DNA from: Stappia indica
Lineage (GTDB): Bacteria; Pseudomonadota; Alphaproteobacteria; Rhizobiales; Stappiaceae
Reading direction: 5' to 3'
DNA: 64,000 bases
NCBI RefSeq assembly: GCF_009789575.1
Contig: NZ_CP046908.1
Coordinates: 1,984,001 to 2,048,000 of the forward strand
The notes under the pieces are model-generated. The model saw nothing but the letters and a program-made list of their open reading frames with translations. It was not told the origin of the DNA and searched no databases. Shown piece by piece: positions 4,148-13,907 of the stretch. The position numbers and the translations under genes were made by a program. Every line of letters starts with the position of its first letter. Positions within the stretch are counted from its first letter, which is position 1.

Positions 4148-5425
4148 TTATTTCTTCAGCTTCGCCTGTTCCAGGGACCAGTATTCCATATCGAAGAGAT
4201 CCGGCGTCGGCAGTGGCGTAAACCGACCATAGGCTTCCGCCGCCTGAATGACCCGTGCCGTCTGCGACGCGAGATCGGCAACGATCCCAGCCTCGGCGGC
4301 ACTGCCTCCGACACCGAACAGTCCCATACCCCGCACCAGGATCACCCGCGGCAACGGATCGAGCATGGTCTTCGGTTCGCTGGCCTGCGCCGCATGGTGC
4401 TCGAAGTAGCGTTCATAGCGCCCGCCGAAATCCGCAAGGGCGGCGTCCAGTTCGGCCGCGCTTTCCGTGCCGTCCAGAACCAAAGGAAACGGCTTGACCC
4501 TGATGACATGGTCCGGGGTGATCGTGCCCCGACCGGTGATCTCCACCAGGTCCGGCATTTGCAGGAGGCTGTCGATTGCCGCATCCGCGCGAAAATCGAG
4601 AGCAACGCCCGAGGCGAAGGCCGGTCCGGCCGCCCGGATGCGCTCCGACAGAAGATCGCGAAAGGCCCGGCTTTCGGCGGTGGCGCCGCGCGGGGCAAGC
4701 GGCGGAACGAGACGCACCCCGTGCTCAGCCAGGTGCTCCTCCGCCATGTTCACGAACTCGATCATCCGATCATAGGACTGGCGCGCCGTCTCGCCGAAGG
4801 TGAAAAGACCGTGATTGACCAGCCAAAGCCCCTCGCAATCGGGATTCTCGTCGAAGATCCGCGCTGCCTCGATGGAGAGGTCGTAACCAGGCATCACATA
4901 GGGCACGATGGCAAGGCGCCGGCCATAGAGGCGACGGCCGATTGCTGCTGCATCCGGCTGGTTCACCAGGGCCAGCACTGCCGCCGCATGGGAATGGTCG
5001 ACGAATTTTGCCGGCAGGAAGGCATGAAGCAGGGTTTCGATGGATGGATTGGGCGAGCCCGGATCGAGCAGATGAGCCCGCAGCAACGCCACCATTTGCG
5101 GATCGGACAGGGCCGGCCCCGACCGCGCCTCGCACAGCGGAGCCAGTTCGAGCGCGGGAAGACCGGGAGCCTCGATCGTCCCCAGGTCCCAGCCACTGCC
5201 CTTCACATGCAGGACGGGCCTGAACTCGCCGTCGGCCATGCGGCGCCGCGTCTTGACCGAGGTGTTGCCTCCGCCATGCAGCACGAGATCGGTCTCGCCG
5301 CCGATCAGCCGCGACGTGTAGATGCGCAGGGCCAGGTCACGCTCGGCCTCCTCCTCCCCGGCTCCGCGCAACCAGGCTGCCGCCTCGTCGTCATTCCACC
5401 TGTTGATCATCCGCACGTCATCCAT
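4148..5425 (-). CDS. Class II aldolase (aldolase-only version of the RhaD-type bifunctional family)
   Basis: A 425-residue class II aldolase/adducin-fold enzyme, expected to cleave or form a C-C bond in a phosphorylated sugar with a divalent metal. The N-terminal half shows the fold (LVLHGGGNTSVK; HSHAAAVLALVNQPDA; WLVNHGLFTFGE). It aligns with the aldolase part of the bifunctional aldolase/short-chain dehydrogenases of about 690 residues. It ends right after the family linker FDMEYWSLEQAKL, where the dehydrogenase domain would begin; no trace of that domain follows. It is last in an operon with LsrG-like, RbsD-like and LuxP-type genes, 4 bases after the LsrG-like stop. In this context it may act on phosphorylated DPD or a derivative, which is inference. 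Confidence 0.82.
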   Translation of the reverse strand: MDDVRMINRWNDDEAAAWLRGAGEEEAERDLALRIYTSRLIGGETDLVLHGGGNTSVKTRRRMADGEFRPVLHVKGSGWDLGTIEAPGLPALELAPLCEARSGPALSDPQMVALLRAHLLDPGSPNPSIETLLHAFLPAKFVDHSHAAAVLALVNQPDAAAIGRRLYGRRLAIVPYVMPGYDLSIEAARIFDENPDCEGLWLVNHGLFTFGETARQSYDRMIEFVNMAEEHLAEHGVRLVPPLAPRGATAESRAFRDLLSERIRAAGPAFASGVALDFRADAAIDSLLQMPDLVEITGRGTITPDHVIRVKPFPLVLDGTESAAELDAALADFGGRYERYFEHHAAQASEPKTMLDPLPRVILVRGMGLFGVGGSAAEAGIVADLASQTARVIQAAEAYGRFTPLPTPDLFDMEYWSLEQAKLKK

Positions 5426-5429
5426 CGCC

Positions 5430-5741
5430 TCAAACCTGCTCGTCCACCAGATCCGACATCACCAGCCGAAAGATGTCCTTGCTGCGCGGTCCGGTCATGA
5501 TGTCTTCCAGCAGCGCCACGGTCGTCTTGTAGTGCTCGGTACGGCGATGATCGTCGACACTCTCGGCGCTGCGGAAGATCTCGACGATGGTGAACCGCGT
5601 CTCGTCCTCCGGATCCTGGAGCACGTCGAAACGCAGGTTGCCCGGCTCCCGGGTCGTGCCCTCGTAGTTGATGCGGAAGGCATCGAGGAAATCCTCGATG
5701 CGATCCGGTTTCACCTGGATGTGAACCAATTGAACGAACAT
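5430..5741 (-). CDS. lsrG: LsrG-like antibiotic-biosynthesis-monooxygenase-fold protein
   Basis: A 103-residue ABM-fold protein starting MFVQLVHIQVKPDRIEDF and containing EPGNLRFDVLQDPEDETRF and HYKTTVALLEDIM. Size and pattern match LsrG, which isomerises phosphorylated AI-2 (phospho-DPD) before cleavage. ABM-fold proteins are otherwise hard to tell apart, so the assignment leans on the neighbours: LuxP-type binding protein, LsrK-like kinase and LsrR-like regulator in the same island. Start ATG 5741 lies 8 bases after the RbsD-like stop, with GGAG 11 bases upstream. Confidence 0.72.
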   Translation of the reverse strand: MFVQLVHIQVKPDRIEDFLDAFRINYEGTTREPGNLRFDVLQDPEDETRFTIVEIFRSAESVDDHRRTEHYKTTVALLEDIMTGPRSKDIFRLVMSDLVDEQV

Positions 5742-5749
5742 CTGCAGGT

Positions 5750-6241
5750 TCACTCCACGCCGGTCTTGCCGAACTTCACATTCAACTCGTGACGCTCGGT
5801 CCAGCTCTCCGGAACCGGCGCTCCGGTGTTGTTGAACCACTCCTGGACGGGAATGCCGGAGACGAGTGCCACATTGCCCCAGGGCATCCAGGCGCCGGTG
5901 CGCACGATGTATTTCGCGCCGCGATAACCGTCCTCGTGGAACCAACTGTTGGGGCGGGTGCTGGCCTTGGCATCGGGGAAGACCTCGGCAACGCCGTTCC
6001 AGGCGTTCGGGTTGTTCTCCTTGGCGTCCTCGATCATGTGGTATTCTTCTACCCACATTTCCTGGCGGATCGCCCGCAGCACGGTAACCAGATCCGGCAC
6101 GCCCGGGCACAGGGCCAGATCGATGACCCGGTCGTCATAGGCCATGGGGTAACCGGCATCGGTGACGAGCAGAATGTCGTCATGGCCCATCTCGGAGATG
6201 GCCCGGCTCAGTTTCACGTTGAGAATTCCATTCCGCCGCAT
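5750..6241 (-). CDS. rbsD: RbsD/FucU-family sugar anomerase (pyranase/mutarotase)
   Basis: A 163-residue RbsD/FucU-type protein, which converts ring forms of unphosphorylated sugars. Visible family blocks are LSRAISEMGHDDILLVTDAGYP, carrying the catalytic-type His about residue 20, and the C-terminal VRTGAWMPWGNVALVSGIP. It is slightly longer than RbsD (about 139) through an insertion near residues 85-120. It lies between the ATPase and LsrG-like genes in the AI-2-type operon. AI-2 is itself a mix of linear and furanosyl forms of DPD, so an anomerase here could prepare the linear form for the kinase (inference). Ribose use is an alternative, but no ribokinase is nearby. Confidence 0.85.
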   Translation of the reverse strand: MRRNGILNVKLSRAISEMGHDDILLVTDAGYPMAYDDRVIDLALCPGVPDLVTVLRAIRQEMWVEEYHMIEDAKENNPNAWNGVAEVFPDAKASTRPNSWFHEDGYRGAKYIVRTGAWMPWGNVALVSGIPVQEWFNNTGAPVPESWTERHELNVKFGKTGVE

Positions 6242-6274
6242 GGCGTTGTCCTTTCGTTTGGGGAAGTCGGTCGT

Positions 6275-7000
6275 TCAGGCATGTCCCTGAACGATGAGAG
6301 AGATGATTTCGTCCTGGGAGGTCGTCGCCATGTCGCGCACGCCGGCCATTCCGCCCAGATGCAGGATGGCCACCCGGTCGCAGACCTTGCGCACATGGCC
6401 GAGGTCGTGGCTGACCATGATGATCCCGATGCCCTTGTCGGCGAGTTCCCGCACGACGGAGAGGACCTCGTCCCTGGCGCTCGGGCTCAGCGCCGATGTC
6501 GGCTCGTCGAGGATGATGTAGCGACTGCCGAAGGCGGTGGTCCGTGCCAGCGCCGACACCTGCCGCTGTCCACCCGACAGGTGGCCGGACGGCGTGCGGA
6601 CATCGAAGGGGCGCACGGAGAAGCTATTGACGATCTCCTGGGCGCGCTTCCGCATCTCGCCGTATTTCAGGAAGCCGAAGCGGTTGGTGATCTCGCGTCC
6701 CAGGAAGATGTTGTGCACGACCGGCATGTCGTCGAAAAGCGCAAGATCCTGGTACAGCATCGCAATGCCTGTATCGCGCGCCTCCGACGAACTTGAAAAG
6801 GAACAGAGCTCGCCGTCCACTTCGATAGTGCCCGTGTCTGGCATCACCGCACCGGCCAGCACCTTCATCAAGGTGGACTTGCCCGCGCCATTATCTCCCA
6901 GCAGCCCGACCACCTCGCCGGCTTCCACTTTCAGATCGATGTTCTCGATCGCTTTCACCGGCCCGTAGGATTTGGAAATTCCGCGCAGAACCACGCTCAT
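6275..7000 (-). CDS. Sugar/AI-2 ABC importer ATPase (single-domain)
   Basis: A 241-residue ABC ATPase that powers the importer encoded with it. It has Walker A GDNGAGKST, signature LSGGQRQ, Walker B YIILDEPT and the switch His in MVSHD. RbsA, XylG and LsrA carry two ABC domains in about 500 residues. This one has a single domain and so probably works as a homodimer, as in FrcA-type systems. It lies 71 bases after the binding-protein gene and 33 bases before the RbsD-like gene, on the same strand. Confidence 0.92.
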   Translation of the reverse strand: MSVVLRGISKSYGPVKAIENIDLKVEAGEVVGLLGDNGAGKSTLMKVLAGAVMPDTGTIEVDGELCSFSSSSEARDTGIAMLYQDLALFDDMPVVHNIFLGREITNRFGFLKYGEMRKRAQEIVNSFSVRPFDVRTPSGHLSGGQRQVSALARTTAFGSRYIILDEPTSALSPSARDEVLSVVRELADKGIGIIMVSHDLGHVRKVCDRVAILHLGGMAGVRDMATTSQDEIISLIVQGHA

Positions 7001-7071
7001 GTCATGCCATCCAGTCTTCGCAGATATCTTGGAGGCAGGGACCGCGTCGCGGCCCCCGCAGCATGGGAGGC

Positions 7072-8211
7072 TCAGCGGTCGAGCTGGCCGGAATAGCGGA
7101 AGGCATGCGCGGTTTCCGCATCGATCGCCTCGCTCGACATCTTGTAGTCCAGCGGCTTGATCGTCGCGGCCAGGACGACCGGCACCGGGTCGCGCTGCGC
7201 GTGGGCCCGGATGGCTTCCGCGACCGCGACGCCCCAGTCGTCATTGACGCGGAACGCCGTCACCTTCAGGCCGCCTTCCTTGATCGACTTCAGTTCGTCG
7301 GCGCCGCCGCCCCAGCCGTTGATGATGACGTCATCCAGAACGCCGCGCTCGGTCGCGGCCGCCAGCACGCCAAGCGCCACGGCGGTGTTGCCTGCGTGCA
7401 GCATCCTGATATCGGGGTGGCGGCTCAACAACGCGTTGGCCCCGCTGAAGGCGAGCTCGCGGTCGCCGTTCGCCTCGAACTCGCCAACCAGTTCCATGTT
7501 GGAGTTCTTGGTCACGCAGTCGGCGAAATGGTCCGACCGCTGGCTGTCGATGAGGCCGGGAATATAACGCACGAGCGCGAACTTGCCCTCGCCGCCGGTC
7601 TCTCCGATCACCCACTGGCACAGGGCCTCAGCCCCGATCGTATGGTCGAAACCGACATGGGTAATCGGTTGCTTGTCGGTGCCGTAGGTGTCCACGAAGG
7701 GATTGACGACGTTCATCACCAGCGTCGGCAGGGCCTCGGCAAGGCGCGAGATGTTCGACTTCTGCACCTGATACTCGGACGGGCCGATCACGACATAATC
7801 GAAGTTGCCGGCCAGAACCTGCTCGACCTGCGCGCCCTGCCGGTCGTGCTCGTCCGGCTTGATCATGAACTCGGTAATCTCGAAGGGCACACCGAGTTCC
7901 TCAAGCCGCTTGCGGGTCGAGATATTGAGGCGGGCCCAGGCGTCCGAGGTTTCAAGGCTCGGGAACATCAAGGCGATGCGCAGCGGCTTGTCGAACGTCT
8001 TGGCGCTGGCAACCGGCTCGGCGACCACCGCCTTCATGAATTTGTCCATGGCTGCCCGTTCGGCCGGCACCATTTCGTGCAACTCGGGGAGCAGGAAGTA
8101 GCCGCGCTCCTTGGCGCCTGCCGGCACATCCTGAGCCGCAAGCGGCAAGGACAGGGCAAGGGTTGCGGCTCCGGTCAGCAGGATTGTTCTTGCAAGGATC
8201 TTCTTGGTCAT
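7072..8211 (-). CDS. luxP: LuxP-type periplasmic autoinducer-2-binding protein
   Basis: A 379-residue periplasmic binding protein with a signal peptide (cleavage near residue 26, LPLAAQ). It follows Vibrio LuxP, not E. coli LsrB, over its length: SDAWARL, HVGFDH, IINGWGGGADEL, FRVNDDWGVAVAEAI and a final AFRYS. Positions matching known LuxP contacts with borated AI-2 are mostly kept: Ser89, Trp92, Arg225, Thr276, Trp300 and Arg321 (LuxP Ser79, Trp82, Arg215, Thr266, Trp289, Arg310). LuxP Gln77 appears as Glu87. In Vibrio, LuxP partners the LuxQ sensor kinase. Here it is followed by an ABC ATPase and preceded by a permease, so it feeds transport. Ligand identity is inferred from these residues. 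Confidence 0.86.
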   Translation of the reverse strand: MTKKILARTILLTGAATLALSLPLAAQDVPAGAKERGYFLLPELHEMVPAERAAMDKFMKAVVAEPVASAKTFDKPLRIALMFPSLETSDAWARLNISTRKRLEELGVPFEITEFMIKPDEHDRQGAQVEQVLAGNFDYVVIGPSEYQVQKSNISRLAEALPTLVMNVVNPFVDTYGTDKQPITHVGFDHTIGAEALCQWVIGETGGEGKFALVRYIPGLIDSQRSDHFADCVTKNSNMELVGEFEANGDRELAFSGANALLSRHPDIRMLHAGNTAVALGVLAAATERGVLDDVIINGWGGGADELKSIKEGGLKVTAFRVNDDWGVAVAEAIRAHAQRDPVPVVLAATIKPLDYKMSSEAIDAETAHAFRYSGQLDR

Positions 8212-8251
8212 TTCGTCTCCTCCACTTTGCTTTTTTGGTATTTGGGTAAAT

Positions 8252-9277
8252 CTATTCCTCGCTGCGGCTGTTGCTGCGGGAGTAGAGGCCGATGGTGATC
8301 AGGATGACGGCGCCAGCGGCCACGTGTTGCCAGAAGGCCTCGAAGCCGAGCATCACCACAGCGTTGGTGATGGTGGCGAGCAACCAGGCCCCGAGCAGCG
8401 TTCCGATGATCGAGCCGCGTCCGCCGAACAGATTGGTGCCGCCGACGATCACCGCGGCGACGGTGTTCAGCAGGATCGTCACCGCGCCCGAGGCGACGAC
8501 CGCATCGAGGCGACCGGTCAAGATGATGCCGCCAAGAGCCGCGATCAGACCCATGAACACATAGACGCCAACCCGGTAGTTCAGGACGCTGATGCCGAGC
8601 CGCCGTGCTGCAACCGGATTGCCGCCGACGGCATGCAGCCGGGCGCCGATCTTGTGGTAGGCGAAGATGCAATGTGCCGCGACGATGAAGGTAAGCGCGA
8701 TGACCAGCGGCATCGGAATTCCGAGCAGCCGCCCGCGCCCGAGCCAGGTGACGAATTCCGGAAAGCCGAAGAAGACGCCGCCGCCGGCATAGACCAGCGC
8801 CAATCCGCGGAACACGAGCTCCGTCGAAAGCGTGACAATGAAGTCCGGCATCCGCAGCTTGGTGATCAGCAGACCGTTGATCAGGCCGCAAAGCCCGCCC
8901 GTCGTGAAACCGACAAGCACCGCGACCCAGAGCGGCAGGCCGAAATCCTTGAGGGCGGCGGCAAAGGCAACGCTGGACAGCGTCAGGATTGCGCCGATCG
9001 ACAGATCGATACCACGGGCGGTGATGACGGCCGTCATGCCGATGCCCAGCAACATGATGAGCGAGGCGTCGAGGGAGATTGCCCGCATGTTGCCGGCGGA
9101 AAAGAAGCTCGGCGTGGTGAAGGCCATGATCAGGGCAATGATGCCGAGCATCACCGCCGGCGCAGCCAGCGGGACCTTCGTCGGGCCGAAGAGCGGGGGC
9201 AGGTTGCCGCGCCAGTTCGAGGTTTCAAGCACCTGGCGCTGCCGCGCAGCCGGGCCATCGTCTTGTACGAGTGCCAA
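8252..9277 (-). CDS. ABC importer permease (RbsC/LsrC type)
   Basis: A membrane permease of the BPD_transp_2 family with about 8-10 hydrophobic segments and family blocks DLSIGAILTLSSVAFA, GLINGLLI and GGRGSIIGTLLGAW. I place the start at TTG 9277 (341 residues): it has GGAGG 5 bases upstream. ATG 9301, also in frame, has no ribosome site and overlaps an operator-like inverted repeat. It is a single permease gene where E. coli has LsrC plus LsrD, so it probably forms a homodimer with the single-domain ATPase. It is first in the operon after the LsrR-like regulator. Confidence 0.88.
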   Translation of the reverse strand: MALVQDDGPAARQRQVLETSNWRGNLPPLFGPTKVPLAAPAVMLGIIALIMAFTTPSFFSAGNMRAISLDASLIMLLGIGMTAVITARGIDLSIGAILTLSSVAFAAALKDFGLPLWVAVLVGFTTGGLCGLINGLLITKLRMPDFIVTLSTELVFRGLALVYAGGGVFFGFPEFVTWLGRGRLLGIPMPLVIALTFIVAAHCIFAYHKIGARLHAVGGNPVAARRLGISVLNYRVGVYVFMGLIAALGGIILTGRLDAVVASGAVTILLNTVAAVIVGGTNLFGGRGSIIGTLLGAWLLATITNAVVMLGFEAFWQHVAAGAVILITIGLYSRSNSRSEE

Positions 9278-9292
9278 TGTTTCCTCCGGAGG

Positions 9293-9329
9293 TGTGTTCA
9301 TTTGTTTTTTGTTGGATCAATTGAACACA
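9293..9329. promoter_or_regulatory. Operator-like inverted repeat before the AI-2-type importer operon
   Basis: Perfect 8-bp inverted repeat TGTGTTCA (9293-9300) / TGAACACA (9322-9329) around an AT-rich core, just ahead of the permease ribosome site. The block TGTTCATTTGTTTT (9295-9308) matches TGTTCATATGTTTT at 10589-10602 in front of the divergent arm, with one difference in 14. It is a candidate binding site for the LsrR-like regulator encoded between them. Confidence 0.6.
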
Positions 9330-9452
9330 CAGCTTGGGAGGAGTGTCAAGCACCTCGTTTTCCTCCCGCGTCATCGGCACCCGCGCGCAGCCGCGCGCCC
9401 CGCCAGGCAGGCTGCAGGAAGGTCGGAAAACGGGAGGGAAGACGTGCGCGGA

Positions 9453-10385
9453 TCAAACCACCAGAGCGTGGGCGGTTTGCTCGTCAGTAATGAAGATATT
9501 GATGAAATCGCCCTGCAGGGCCGCGCGTATCGCAGGCACCTTGTCGAGGCCGCCGGAGGCGGCAATCATCCGCGGCGCCTCGCGGTAGCTCTCCAGCGGC
9601 AAGCCGATCACCCGCTCGTGCAATGGCAGGTCGATCTCCTTGCCTTGCGCATCGAAGAACCGGCAGAGAACATCGCCAACCGCACCGCTCCGGCGCATTG
9701 CCTCGACCTCCGCGGGATGGACATAGCCGCGACGGATCACGCTGGCGGTCTCGTCGACCGCACCGATGCCAACCAGCGCGAAATCGGCCTTTAGCGCCAT
9801 CTGCAATGTGTTGCGCACGCTGGCGTCGCGCAGCATAGCCTTGGCAATCTGGGCATCCTCCACCACCAGCGGCGCTGGCACGAGGAACATCTTGCAATCG
9901 GCACTGACAACGCGAAGGCCGTCGACATAGGCCTGAACGCCGCCGGTCATGCCGACAAGGTCGATCCGGCGATCGTTCACCAGATGGCCCAGGCGACGGA
10001 TCGCCGCGCCGACCATTTCCCCCCAGCCGACCGCCAGAAGCCCGCCCTCATCCAGGCGCTGCATCAGGAACTGGGCCGCGGCCTGGCCAAGCCTTTCGCT
10101 GCGTGGCTCCCCCGCGAGATGCGGGATGACCCGCACCTCCTCCAGCTTGAACCGGTCCTGCAAGCGGCGCTCGATCTCCAGGCACCCCTGCAAGGCGGAG
10201 TTGATACGCACCTCCAGCATGCCGCTGCGGCGACCGTTTTCGAGCATTCGGGAGACCTTGATACGCGGCAGGCCCAGCTTTTCGCCAATCGCCTGCTGCG
10301 TCAGTCCGTCATGGTAGTAGTACCAGGCCACACGGGCCAACAGCGCGTCTTCCTCGGAAATGATCGGCGTCTCGAATGCAGTCAT
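9453..10385 (-). CDS. lsrR: LsrR-like SorC/DeoR-family transcriptional regulator
   Basis: A 310-residue sugar-phosphate-sensing regulator. The N-terminal helix-turn-helix is visible as DGLTQQAIGEKLGLPRIKVSRML. The C-terminal SorC-type effector domain contains LLAVGWGEMVGAAIRRL, ALVGIGAVDE and IGLPLES. LsrR represses lsr genes and is released by phosphorylated AI-2; here it lies between the importer operon and the divergent LVIVD/LsrK-like arm. The start is taken at ATG 10385 (GAGAG 7 bases upstream) rather than the in-frame GTG at 10403. Confidence 0.87.
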   Translation of the reverse strand: MTAFETPIISEEDALLARVAWYYYHDGLTQQAIGEKLGLPRIKVSRMLENGRRSGMLEVRINSALQGCLEIERRLQDRFKLEEVRVIPHLAGEPRSERLGQAAAQFLMQRLDEGGLLAVGWGEMVGAAIRRLGHLVNDRRIDLVGMTGGVQAYVDGLRVVSADCKMFLVPAPLVVEDAQIAKAMLRDASVRNTLQMALKADFALVGIGAVDETASVIRRGYVHPAEVEAMRRSGAVGDVLCRFFDAQGKEIDLPLHERVIGLPLESYREAPRMIAASGGLDKVPAIRAALQGDFINIFITDEQTAHALVV

Positions 10386-10697
10386 GGACGATCTCTCAGG
10401 CACGCGCCAAGACGTCGGCCCCGTCTGACGCAGGGGCTTCCGCGTAAAAACGCAACGGTATTACGAATCAGGCTCCACCAAACTTCAAGCTCAAACCGGC
10501 CAAACTTGGTCCAGCGCGTTTGCCCCAGAGCGAACGATCCGGTCAAGGCAAAAAGCGGGACGCGGCGCTTGACGAGCCCTATCGTGCATGTTCATATGTT
10601 TTGTATAAACACAAATGATCTATTCGTAAAGCGATCCGGCATCCGCATACCTCGAAGGAGCGGTGGACAGCCAGACGTTCCCCCCGGAGAGGAAACC
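10386..10697. promoter_or_regulatory. Divergent control region of the AI-2-type island
   Basis: 312 non-coding bases between the LsrR-like gene and the LVIVD-protein gene. An AT-rich block at 10586-10620 holds TGTTCATATGTTTT (10589-10602), nearly identical to the element at 9295-9308. It also holds a small inverted repeat TGTTT/AAACA around 10597-10611 and TATAAAC, which could serve as a -10 element. The rest is GC-rich without evident features. Confidence 0.55.
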
Positions 10698-11960
10698 ATG
10701 ACCACCGCCACCACCCTGCGCGCGCCCGCCCACGCTCTCAACATGCGGCTGATCGGCCACTGCACCCAGGGAGGACGATCCGACGGAACGCAGATCATGG
10801 TGCGCGACGGCTACGCCTATGTGGCCCACATCTTCTCGAAGGGCTTCAGCGTGATCGACGTTCGCGATCCCTCCCGCCCTCGCACGGTGAATTATATCCC
10901 CTCCCCGCCCAACACCTGGTCGCTCCATCTTCAGGTGCATGACAACCTCCTGTTGACGGTGCACGCACAGGACCAGTTCGCAAAGCCGGAAAGCGACGAC
11001 GAACGTAACTACTACAAGGCCGACACCAGCGACATCTCCAAGGCGATGCAGGCGACGGACCGGAACCATTCCGCCGGCATGGCCGTCTACGACTTGAGCG
11101 ATCCCGCGAACCCGCGACAGATCGGCTTCATGCCGGTCAATGGCGTCGGCCTGCATCGGATCTGGTACGCGGGCGGGCGCTGGGCTTACGCCTCCGCGCA
11201 GATCGAAGGGTTCACCGACTTCATCCTCGTGACCATCGACATGTCCGATCCCACAAGGCCGGAGATCGCCGGCCGGTTCTGGCTGCCGGGAATGAATGTT
11301 GCCGCCGGCGAGGTGCCGGACTGGCCGCTTGCGGAGGGGCGCTACAGCCTGCACCATCCGATCGTGCATGGCGACACGGCCTATTGCGGCTGGCGCGATG
11401 CCTGCCTCGTCGTCGTCGACGTGAAGGACCGCACGGCTCCCAGGATGATCGCGCATCGCAACTGGGCACCGCCCTTCGGTGGCGGCACCCACAACTGCCT
11501 CCCCCTGCCGGATCGCGACCTGCTGATCGTGGTCGACGAGACGGTCCTCGACAACGAGGAGGACGGCGACAAGCCGATCTGGGTCTTCGATATTCGCAAC
11601 CCTGCCAATCCGATCTCCATCGCCACCTTCCCCAAGCCCAACGACCGCGACTACAAGGCCGTCGGCGGGCATTTCGGGCCGCACAACGTCCATGAAAACC
11701 GGCCGGGCAGTTTCGTCAGCTCGACGCTGATCTTCTCCACCTGGCAAAATGCCGGCTTGAGGATCCACGACATTTCCAATCCCTACGCCCCTAGAGAAGT
11801 CGGCGCGCTCGTTCCCCAGGCCCCGACACATCATGTCGACCATCGCCCGGGCCGACCGCTGGTTATCAACACCACGGATGTCTTCGTGGACTCTGCGGGT
11901 CTTGTCTATTTTACTGACTTCAGCGGCGGCGGCCTGCACATCGCCGAGTTCAACGGCTGA
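10698..11960 (+). CDS. LVIVD-repeat beta-propeller protein
   Basis: A 420-residue protein built from LVIVD-type propeller repeats. Successive blades read GFSVIDVRDPSRPR, GMAVYDLSDPANPR, FILVTIDMSDPTRP, CLVVVDVKDRTAP, PIWVFDIRNPANP and GLRIHDISNPYAPR. Histidine-rich loops (LHHPIVHGD, GGGTHNCLP, THHVDHRPG) could form a metal site at the propeller centre. No signal peptide is evident. The start ATG 10698 has GGAGAGGAA just upstream; the open frame further left is not used. It is 32 bases ahead of the LsrK-like gene and shares its promoter. Its function is unknown; by position it may act on AI-2 or its products. Confidence 0.8.
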   Translation: MTTATTLRAPAHALNMRLIGHCTQGGRSDGTQIMVRDGYAYVAHIFSKGFSVIDVRDPSRPRTVNYIPSPPNTWSLHLQVHDNLLLTVHAQDQFAKPESDDERNYYKADTSDISKAMQATDRNHSAGMAVYDLSDPANPRQIGFMPVNGVGLHRIWYAGGRWAYASAQIEGFTDFILVTIDMSDPTRPEIAGRFWLPGMNVAAGEVPDWPLAEGRYSLHHPIVHGDTAYCGWRDACLVVVDVKDRTAPRMIAHRNWAPPFGGGTHNCLPLPDRDLLIVVDETVLDNEEDGDKPIWVFDIRNPANPISIATFPKPNDRDYKAVGGHFGPHNVHENRPGSFVSSTLIFSTWQNAGLRIHDISNPYAPREVGALVPQAPTHHVDHRPGRPLVINTTDVFVDSAGLVYFTDFSGGGLHIAEFNG

Positions 11961-11992
11961 GACCGGCCGGCGCACGCGACGAGGAGGGCTCA

Positions 11993-13558
11993 ATGCCGCA
12001 ATACTATCTCGCCATAGATGCCGGCACCGGCAGCGGCCGGGCGGTGGTCTTCGATGACGCTGGCCGTCAGTGCGGTCTCAGCCAGGAAGAGTGGACCCAT
12101 ATCAGCGAGGCCGGCGTCCCCGGCTCGATGAGTTTCGACTGTGCGGGGAACTGGCGGCTTCTCGCCCGCTGCATCCGCCGCGCCATCGCCAGTGCCGGCA
12201 TCCGCGCGGATGAGATCGCGGCGATCAGCTCGACATCGATGCGCGAAGGTATTGTGGTCTACGACGCGGCGGGAAACGAACTGTGGGCCTGTGCCAATGT
12301 CGACGGCCGGGCGACGGCCGAAGTCGCCGACCTGAAGGCCCGGGACGAAGAACTGGAAGCGCATTTCTACCGCGTCAGTGGCCAGACCTTCGCGCTCGGG
12401 GTCTGGCCGCGGCTGGAATGGCTGCGCCGGAACCGTCCGGGCATCTTCGAAAAGGCGGCCAGGCTGTCGATGATCAACGACTGGGTCGCCGCCCGCCTGA
12501 GCGGCGAGATCGTGGTCGAGCCCTCCAACGCGGGCACCACGGGATTGCTGGACCCCGGTGCCAGGCAATGGTCGAACACGCTGATCGCCGAAGCTGGGCT
12601 GCCGCGCGAGCTGTTTCCGCGCGTCGTCGAGCCCGGTTCGGCGATCGGCGGCGTCACGGCGAAGGCCGCGGAGGAAACCGGGCTGAAGACCGGCACGCCG
12701 GTGATCTGCGGCGGCGGCGATGTGCAGATGGGAACGCTGGGCCTTGGCGTCACCCGCGACGGCGATGCCGCAATTCTCGGCGGCACGTTCTGGCAACAGG
12801 TGATCAACATCCCGACGGGCCGCACCGACGACACGAGGCGGGTGCGCATCAATCCGCATGTGGTTGCCGGGCTGAACCAGGCGGAGTGCATCTCGTTTTT
12901 CGTCGGCCTGACCATGCGCTGGTTCCGCGACACGTTCTGCGGCGAGGAGAAGCAAGAGGCCGCCCGGCGCGGCATGGACGTCTATGCCCTTCTGGAGGAA
13001 ATGGCCGCCAGGGTTCCGCCTGGCAGCAACGGGATCATCCCGATCTTTTCCGATGCGATGGACTTCGGACACTGGTACCACGCGGCCCCATCCTTCCTGA
13101 ACATGTCGATCGAGCCGGGCCACACCACCAAGGCGAGCCTGTTTCGCGCGCTGGAGGAAAACGCCGCCATCGTCTCCAGCATCAACCTGGAACGGGTCAT
13201 GAGCTTCTCCAAGGTCCGCATCGACAAGCCGGTGGTGTTCGCCGGTGGCGCGTCCAAAGGCGCGCTATGGGCGCAGATCCTGGCCGACGTTCTGGGCCGC
13301 GAGGTCGCCATCCCAAGGGTGCGCGAGGCGACCGCGTTGGGATGCGCTGCGGTCGCGGCCTTCGGCATCGGAAATTTCTCGTCTCTGGCCGAGGCCGGAT
13401 CGGAAATGTCAGAGGTGGAGCGCATTGTCACGCCCAACCCCACGGTGGCGGAGACCTATCTCGCGGCACGGAACCGCTGGGAACGCGCCTACCCCCAGCA
13501 AAAGGCCCTGACCGACGCAGGCGTGACCTCCGCCATGTGGCGCGCGCCAGGCGTCTGA
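11993..13558 (+). CDS. lsrK: Autoinducer-2 kinase (LsrK-like FGGY kinase)
   Basis: A 521-residue FGGY carbohydrate kinase matching E. coli LsrK along its length: YYLAIDAGTGSGRAVVFD, VPGSMSFD, SSTSMREGIVVY, WACANVD, DPGARQW, GGGDVQMGTLGLGV, LGGTFWQQV, GLTMRWFRD, TWYHAAPSF-like WYHAAPSFLNMS and LFRALEENAAIVS. LsrK phosphorylates imported DPD with ATP in the cytoplasm, trapping it and producing the signal sensed by LsrR. Ribosome site GAGGAGG. No gene for LsrF is present in the island. This is the strongest single marker that the island handles AI-2 rather than an ordinary sugar. Confidence 0.9.
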   Translation: MPQYYLAIDAGTGSGRAVVFDDAGRQCGLSQEEWTHISEAGVPGSMSFDCAGNWRLLARCIRRAIASAGIRADEIAAISSTSMREGIVVYDAAGNELWACANVDGRATAEVADLKARDEELEAHFYRVSGQTFALGVWPRLEWLRRNRPGIFEKAARLSMINDWVAARLSGEIVVEPSNAGTTGLLDPGARQWSNTLIAEAGLPRELFPRVVEPGSAIGGVTAKAAEETGLKTGTPVICGGGDVQMGTLGLGVTRDGDAAILGGTFWQQVINIPTGRTDDTRRVRINPHVVAGLNQAECISFFVGLTMRWFRDTFCGEEKQEAARRGMDVYALLEEMAARVPPGSNGIIPIFSDAMDFGHWYHAAPSFLNMSIEPGHTTKASLFRALEENAAIVSSINLERVMSFSKVRIDKPVVFAGGASKGALWAQILADVLGREVAIPRVREATALGCAAVAAFGIGNFSSLAEAGSEMSEVERIVTPNPTVAETYLAARNRWERAYPQQKALTDAGVTSAMWRAPGV

Positions 13559-13748: not shown

Positions 13749-13830
13749 CGCGTGCCCTCGCCTGGCTGCCCGGTACAGCATGCAGGCCAGCGCATCATGA
13801 TCGGAAATTGCTCTTGATAAAGACAAGTGG

Positions 13831-13907
13831 TGGTAGCGGAGGAGGGACTCGAACCCCCGACACGCGGATTATGATTCCGCTGCTCTAACCAACTGAGCTA
13901 CTCCGCC
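13831..13907 (-). tRNA. tRNA-Met (anticodon CAT)
   Basis: A 77-nt cloverleaf with encoded CCA end. Acceptor GGCGGAG pairs with CTCCGCT (first pair G-U). The D arm GCTC/GAGC, anticodon stem GCGGA/TCCGC with loop ATCATAA, and T arm GGGGGTTCGAGTCCCTC are present. The sequence looks like an elongator methionine tRNA; CAT could also be modified for isoleucine, which I consider less likely. Confidence 0.95.

Follow-up and report, generated by a model that had tools for sequence, protein, structure and literature searches.

Among the periplasmic binding proteins for AI-2, LuxP by and large serves sensing and LsrB serves import. LuxP is known as a sensor subunit, partnered in Vibrio harveyi with the LuxQ sensor, and (2S,4S)-THMF-borate is the AI-2 form favoured by sea water. 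The lsr operon of Escherichia coli K-12 combines the LsrACDB importer with LsrK, LsrR, LsrG and LsrF, and no class II aldolase, RbsD or propeller is annotated therein. The lsr operon on pSymB of Sinorhizobium meliloti also encodes LsrACDB, with an LsrB 78% identical to that of E. coli, alongside LsrK, LsrR, LsrG and, instead of LsrF, a class II aldolase; RbsD and a propeller are absent from the 19.5 kb stretch. No description of a LuxP-type importer together with LsrK was found in the open-access literature. The island described here, from Stappia indica, breaks the division between LuxP sensing and LsrB import, and does so as a compact, testable gene set carried by a marine organism without AI-2 production of its own.

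The island lies at 4148..13558 of the window (the whole stretch of 64,000 nucleotides that was analysed), where the original prediction had placed it, and all nine frames are open. By appearance it looks like a compact set for AI-2 uptake and breakdown. Its gene order is kept in seven other records, which puts the gene set far beyond chance, and its proteins are at least 63% identical to those of all seven relatives. In our reading, to which we assign a probability of about 0.8 from sequence comparison, the island would be an alphaproteobacterial lsr operon in which LsrACDB is replaced by a LuxP-family binder and a one-permease/one-ATPase importer, and which also includes an RbsD anomerase and a propeller. 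It would be a variant of the lsr operon whose importer comes from the Vibrio-type receptor family rather than the usual gut-bacterial one.

The predicted presence of LsrK, LsrG and LsrR homologues in one island was borne out, with different standing in NCBIfam. LsrK, the AI-2 kinase (11993..13558, plus strand, 521 aa), scores 801.1 bits against a cut-off of 528 and is 55.3% identical to E. coli LsrK. LsrG is the only match of the putative phospho-DPD isomerase (5430..5741, minus strand, 103 aa), at 116.8 bits and below the cut-off of 135, with 50.5% identity to E. coli LsrG. LsrR is the best match of the SorC/DeoR-family regulator (9453..10403, minus strand, 316 aa), at 319.3 bits and below the cut-off of 486. 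This regulator is 43% identical to E. coli LsrR and 47-56% identical to the LsrR of six alphaproteobacterial LsrB-type operons, on whose side it falls in a poorly resolved tree built without L014. An operator-like pattern, read by eye in the window and afterwards tested in the relatives, occurs as TGTTCATTTGTTTT at the start of the permease operon (9295..9308, plus strand) and as TGTTCATATGTTTT in the divergent promoter region of the LsrR and propeller genes (10589..10602, plus strand), and the sites are conserved in the island relatives. The S. meliloti operon holds the word within one mismatch, and it is common to most of the LsrB operons examined; in the E. coli operon it is not above chance. 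An accident of the window was rejected given this occurrence in relatives, although two of the six LsrB-type regions (L078 and L086) fit poorly, with no good match.

LsrF, predicted to be absent, gave no match in the genome at E 1e-3, while the same query matches in G746. At the locus stands a single-domain class II aldolase (PF00596; 4148..5425, minus strand, 425 aa), whose matches to the PRK08324 aldolase/SDR models span their first 400-odd positions and score below cut-off, and which carries the motifs ETLLH, DHSH and NHGL, which we take to be the metal site. The aldolase listed in the original prediction is no peculiarity of the island: a class II aldolase is found in all six alphaproteobacterial LsrB operons examined, and the island protein is 51-57% identical to these counterparts. 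The likely substitute for LsrF in Alphaproteobacteria would then be a class II aldolase; how the pathway ends in this class seems not to have been elucidated so far, and open-access searches turned up no paper on the topic. A rhamnulose aldolase was rejected, as two RhaD sequences are placed well away from the lsr-linked aldolases in a tree which, like those of LsrR and LsrG, is weakly resolved. By cleavage between C2 and C3, the metal-dependent aldolase would yield dihydroxyacetone phosphate (DHAP) and a two-carbon acetyl unit, released as acetate, or as acetaldehyde given prior reduction, and would thereby fill the role of LsrF with a different reaction. The product of LsrG is presumably the oxidised analogue of the 1-phospho-2-ketose used by the aldolase DrdA. 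As described in PMC6079011, DrdA is the 5-deoxyribulose-1-phosphate aldolase of the DHAP shunt, a class II metal aldolase that converts a five-carbon 1-phospho-2-ketose to DHAP, the chemistry proposed for the island enzyme. DrdA is, however, modelled there on fuculose-1-phosphate aldolase, which belongs to a different class II branch, and for the island aldolase we infer the substrate.

The binding protein (7072..8211, minus strand, 379 aa) begins with a stretch that by eye looks like a signal peptide. Compared with solved structures, it matches four LuxP sequences best, at about 168 bits, followed by a ribose binder at 51; V. harveyi LuxP is the closest and aligns in its N-terminal extension as well. 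In the structure comparison that had been proposed, the fold is closest to LuxP and not to a ribose binder. The clustering with ribose or rhamnose binders named beforehand as the contrary outcome was not seen in the comparison, which took in ribose binders and LsrB. An ordinary ribose binder was rejected on structure matches, tree and fold, and yet the best NCBIfam match is RbsB (42.7 bits, far below the cut-off of 337), with no LuxP model among the matches. The tree covered signalling, ABC-linked and island proteins, with six of the 14 ABC-linked rows (L030-L035) dropped as near copies or badly extended. The island proteins form a clade of their own (support 100/99), and the signalling LuxP clade (98/89) excludes them; the tree gives no clear order among the three clades. 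Judged by the tree, the binding protein belongs to the LuxP family but to neither signalling LuxP nor the ABC-linked LuxP-like proteins, its clade being the third. The predicted likeness to LuxP thus holds for the nearest solved relatives, but not as orthology with Vibrio LuxP.

Aligned to LuxP, eight of 12 examined pocket positions are kept and four are changed (Q77E, T134G, D136S/T and D267A); Q77 of LuxP corresponds to E87 of the island protein. R215 and R310, which contact borate in LuxP (PMC3794749), are kept in all eight island proteins. ABC-linked LuxP-like proteins also carry both arginines, so that the pair alone is no proof of borate, and they have in common with the island proteins an acidic residue 77, G134, A267 and, at 136, S (in the island S or T). 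N159 and H180 of signalling LuxP are retained in the island proteins, whereas the ABC-linked clade has A and S there in eight of nine tree rows. Given the separate clade and the four differing pocket positions, the borated-form import of the original prediction is treated here as a possibility only.

The ABC-linked LuxP-like proteins (L002, L003, L028-L038, L052 and L080) adjoin an ATPase and a permease at 14 of 14 loci plus L080, and are 35-37% identical to the island binder in the nine rows measured. Where examined, the genes beside them concern other sugars or sugar acids: the protein of L018 lies beside a two-domain sugar-acid kinase (PF07005, PF17042), presumably of OtnK type, a class II aldolase and an NAD-binding dehydrogenase, and that of L080 lies upstream of genes annotated as L-rhamnonate dehydratase and PdxA. 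Such neighbours, their co-occurrence with R215 and R310, and the nearest non-lsr aldolase among the matches listed, an SDR fusion near mtnK and mtnA, would suit an importer whose substrate is some other small sugar or sugar acid (e.g. a 5-deoxypentose or a tetronate-like acid) with lsr-like enzymes recruited to process it. We consider this unlikely, given that the kinase, regulator, isomerase and aldolase are of the types found in alphaproteobacterial LsrB operons, with the operator-like word mostly in common, that we know of no role for LsrK and LsrG outside AI-2, and that N159 and H180 side with signalling LuxP. In 12-20 kb around seven ABC-linked loci (L018, L019, L068-L071 and L080), LsrK, LsrR, LsrG, RbsD, the propeller and the island-type aldolase are all absent. 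The features shared with LsrB operons, together with the clustering with ribose binders or LsrB that was tested and not seen, make the predicted uptake and processing of AI-2 by a LuxP-family ABC importer well supported; taken as a whole, the first reading is partly supported.

No LuxQ gene lies beside the LuxP-family gene of the island. The neighbours are a single-domain sugar-type ABC ATPase (PF00005; 6275..7000, minus strand, 241 aa) with Walker A and LSGGQ, and a permease (BPD_transp_2 in Pfam, also matched in NCBIfam; 8252..9301, minus strand, 349 aa) whose start codon is not certain, the relatives aligning from residue 1, 6 or 7 onward. For both, xylose- or ribose-type NCBIfam models outscore LsrA and LsrC, every score being below cut-off. 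The island holds no LsrB/LsrACD importer, and LsrB matches in the genome are weak (best 29.1 bits). The predicted exchange of LuxQ for permease and ATPase is right at the locus but does not extend to the genome, which encodes outside the island a protein of LuxQ-periplasm/GGDEF-EAL type (PF09308, 53 bits vs 25.7). The island binder might, on this account, mainly feed that sensor, with the ABC genes secondary. This is very improbable, as the sensor has its own adjoining LuxP, 11 of 14 Stappia genomes encode such a sensor-type LuxP although eight of these 11 lack the island, and the island protein adjoins its permease and ATPase in eight of eight records. In the context check of LuxP-family loci, the five sensor queries (three of them checked with Pfam) were drawn from the same set, so that four of the 21 sensor-positive loci are the query loci themselves; L004 was left out of the neighbour check because its contig ends.

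The companion search for luxS covered the 5.12 Mb genome, which is 99.97% complete, and came up empty; a control search was positive in five of 14 known genomes. Alphaproteobacteria use SAH hydrolase and not LuxS (PMC524169, PMC3386761). Under the preferred reading, an lsr operon with a LuxP-family importer, the binding protein would catch a cyclic DPD adduct from other bacteria, the one-permease/one-ATPase importer would carry it inward, and RbsD may aid ring opening or re-anomerisation. LsrK would phosphorylate the imported DPD, phospho-DPD would release LsrR from both operators, and LsrG would isomerise it. A strain that makes no AI-2 would in this way eavesdrop, scavenge or interfere. More tentatively, and with the odds somewhat against it, the LuxP-family protein may pass (2S,4S)-THMF-borate to the ABC transporter, RbsD converting the anomer for LsrK and the class II metal aldolase yielding DHAP, while the second LuxP would sense AI-2 through c-di-GMP enzymes. 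Such a conversion of the borate-form anomer would explain why RbsD is found in eight of eight LuxP-type records and in none of six LsrB-type stretches. The RbsD/FucU-type anomerase (5750..6241, minus strand, 163 aa), present as predicted, passes the NCBIfam D-ribose pyranase cut-off (94.2 bits against 93). In a gapped pairwise alignment with E. coli RbsD, compared at six selected positions, H20, D28 and T98 agree and 106, 120 and 122 differ.

The island is patchy, occurring in three of 87 genomes of the family, and sits at another place in G465. A tRNA-Met (13831..13907, minus strand) adjoins the cassette, and similarity to island-free Stappia begins at its 3' end. The gene set is probably mobile, and the comparison suggests that AI-2 processing genes stay together while receptor and importer get swapped. 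Patchiness and changed position could also mark a cassette that is mobile by descent and silent or decayed in this host, a view that deserves very little credence with nine open frames, at least 63% identity to seven relatives, intact aldolase and ABC motifs and conserved operator-like sites. The remaining gene, present as predicted and in all eight island records, encodes an LVIVD-repeat beta-propeller (PF08309; 10698..11960, plus strand, 420 aa) with no signal peptide by eye and a propeller fold in its predicted structure at modest confidence (pLDDT 67.3). Propellers of this kind are widespread beside other transporters and are not AI-2-specific.

The window (C1:1984001-2048000) lies in a single-contig genome of 5.12 Mb that is 99.97% complete. 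By Pfam and NCBIfam assignment, nine genes make up the island (window 4148-13558). The minus strand encodes seven of them, which read in turn LsrR, permease, LuxP-family binding protein, ATPase, RbsD, LsrG and class II aldolase; the plus strand encodes the propeller, followed by LsrK. The predicted aldolase, RbsD-type protein and beta-propeller are all in place. The nine genes form a unit. A scan of genome contigs for the binding protein found seven loci. Six of them (two each from Stappia, Hoeflea and Pseudotabrizicola) carry the full set of nine in unchanged order, while the seventh, from Zobellella, has only a binding protein 29% identical to that of the island; within the plasmid collection, pRA01 of Roseicitreum antarcticum is a further record with all nine. 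Identity to the window genes is 91-100% in the Stappia relatives (98 and 95% for the binding proteins of two Stappia in the genome scan) and 63-80% in Pseudotabrizicola, but 88% for the ATPase there. The island is also rare. Among 87 genomes of the family, 3 have a strong binding-protein match, and at E 1e-100 one of 397 sampled from the order does, namely this genome; at a looser E 1e-40, 9 of 385 genomes sampled from the class match, with the close form in this genome only. LsrK scored above cut-off in 1 of 385 genomes of the class, again this one, in 10 of 349 of the phylum, and in none of 14 control genomes in either search.

No LuxP model was among the NCBIfam matches of the binding protein, and the best match, RbsB, was far sub-threshold (42.7 bits against a cut-off of 337), so it is solved structures and trees that support the LuxP label. 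The ATPase and permease belong to the xylose/ribose type rather than lying near LsrA and LsrC. A tree of 45 proteins recovers three clades: that of the island proteins (support 100/99); that of LuxP-like proteins linked to ABC genes outside such islands (98/99), into which a Vibrio-plasmid orphan also falls; and that of V. harveyi LuxP together with the proteins linked to sensors (98/89). The branching order of the three is not settled by this tree. Gene context agrees with the clades: permease and ATPase are present at all 14 ABC-labelled loci, and 21 of 22 sensor-labelled loci checked have an adjoining gene that matches at least one of a set of five sensor-like queries. Four of these 21 are the loci from which queries were taken; the remaining locus, L004, ends at a contig edge. 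The original prediction of a LuxP-type protein was therefore right as to family and would be wrong if read as orthology, since the island proteins stand apart from V. harveyi LuxP. The ABC-linked proteins (L018, L019, L068-L071, L080) make up an importer clade of the family, with sugar-acid genes near those of L018 and L080. The orphan gene (L081 8878-9984, Vibrio sp. THAF190c plasmid) falls in this clade; its stretch gave no match to the island ABC genes, and a reading frame labelled by eye as GGDEF-EAL-like lies nearby on the other strand. In the accessible portions of earlier surveys, LuxP is given for Vibrio only (2004; PMC524169) or also for a few Oceanospirillales and Deltaproteobacteria (PMC2561040); those of a 2025 survey, which counts 267 LuxP proteins and speaks of AI-2 being bound by LsrB and LuxP so as to be carried into the cell, describe no operon like that of the island (PMC12268683).

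A LuxQ sensor had been thought to be replaced here by the ABC importer. The ABC genes do stand beside the island protein, but a LuxQ-periplasm protein is present elsewhere in the genome, at about 3.25 Mb of C1. There, a second LuxP with the full signalling pocket (C1:3251216-3252232; L025 9716-10732) adjoins a 923-residue protein with LuxQ-periplasm, PAS, GGDEF and EAL domains (L025 6942-9713), so AI-2 sensing and import may coexist in this organism. From its domains, the pair is possibly a direct switch from AI-2 to c-di-GMP. Signalling-type LuxP occurs in 11 of 14 Stappia genomes, this one included, each time with a related sensor adjoining.

The processing genes of the island, judged by sequence, are those of alphaproteobacterial AI-2 operons. 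Six such operons (L066, L078, L079, L086, L087, L088), all alphaproteobacterial, were chosen from plasmid-borne LsrK relatives (79 records, 53 from Sinorhizobium) and one genome match; they come from G747, Ensifer canadensis, S. meliloti, Alloyangia pacifica, Tritonibacter mobilis and Paracoccus aminophilus. All six have LsrK, LsrR, LsrG and LsrACDB, with LsrB 73-79% identical to that of E. coli, and all have a class II aldolase beyond lsrB, at the place of LsrF, that is 51-57% identical to the island aldolase; LsrF, RbsD and the propeller were found in none of the six stretches. The predicted absence of LsrF held genome-wide in three island-bearing Stappia genomes, and G747 likewise gave none; the positive control, G746, a genome of the phylum that we presume to be gammaproteobacterial, had it. 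The LsrK tree joins island and alphaproteobacterial LsrB-type proteins (94/93), each as its own clade, against those of E. coli, eight presumed Gammaproteobacteria and one Deinococcus. The LsrR and LsrG trees are weak and do not contradict this grouping, and the aldolase tree leaves the position of the island open. A 2012 study, in its accessible part, names a 'putative Lsr system in Rhizobiales', in which the counterpart of LsrF is a fructose-bisphosphate aldolase (PMC3420918); by its annotations, that system is a different gene set from the island.

The LsrG product is, by structure, an oxidised analogue of 5-deoxyribulose-1-phosphate. The closest aldolases outside lsr operons, among the best 60 of 341 records, are aldolase/SDR proteins, the best match (L091 8001-10055, Shinella) lying in what is likely a DHAP-shunt-like cluster, with mtnK, mtnA and a sugar transporter nearby. 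This setting resembles the DHAP shunt, in which, as far as the available text goes, another class II aldolase cuts 5-deoxyribulose-1-phosphate to DHAP and acetaldehyde (PMC6079011). The authors of the LsrF work, in the portion available, considered C2-C3 cleavage of rearranged phospho-AI-2 to acetate and DHAP (PMC2728841). Given this idea, the likeness to the shunt and the structure of the LsrG product, the island aldolase would yield DHAP and an acetyl unit. The same source gives (2R,4S)-THMF as ligand of the Salmonella and S. meliloti receptors and (2S,4S)-THMF-borate as that of V. harveyi (PMC2728841). RbsD accompanies the LuxP-type importer in 8/8 records versus 0/6 for the LsrB type, which suggests that the ring form imported by the former needs opening or a change of anomer. 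Only three of six RbsD positions compared are kept in the island protein. The LVIVD propeller family (window 10698-11960; L082-L085) is common on plasmids (62 records) beside several transporter kinds, and in Klebsiella adjoins mtnK and mtnA.

Imported AI-2 is phosphorylated by LsrK, and repression by LsrR lasts until phospho-AI-2 is present (PMC3386761, accessible part). A putative operator word, TGTTCATWTGTTTT, occurs twice in the 64 kb at up to 2 mismatches, at 9295-9308 and 10589-10602 (both plus strand), one in each of the island's two promoter regions, a count that is no test because the word was taken by eye from those sites. In relatives, TGTTCATATGTT was searched against 300 shuffles per region. 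Sites with at most 1 mismatch are present in 8/8 LsrR-propeller regions (0/300 shuffles as good in each), in 7/8 LsrR-permease regions (0-1 of 300), the eighth being the window itself, where the site lies across the predicted start of the permease and so beyond the region as cut, and in 4/6 LsrB-operon intergenic regions (0-1 of 300). Best matches were not distinct in the LsrB operons L078 (2 mismatches, 17/300) and L086 (3, 57/300), in E. coli (3, 154/300) or in G746 (2, 45/300).

The cassette is followed by a tRNA-Met gene (window 13831-13907), whose 3' end appears to be a site of cassette gain and loss, since conserved synteny with several Stappia genomes stops there. Similarity of the island-free Stappia G458, G462 and G464 to the window starts at 13828-13831, the tRNA-Met 3' end, with none to its left in the fetched stretches; in G467 it likewise runs from this end, with gaps. 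A search for repeats at the cassette ends found none. In G465 the cassette (4154-13554) is on another contig, and its tRNA-Met site is like that of the island-free strains. To the left of the island, a 698-residue protein (L121 7798-9894), ending at window 1894, is presumably an alkyl sulfatase of metallo-beta-lactamase fold.
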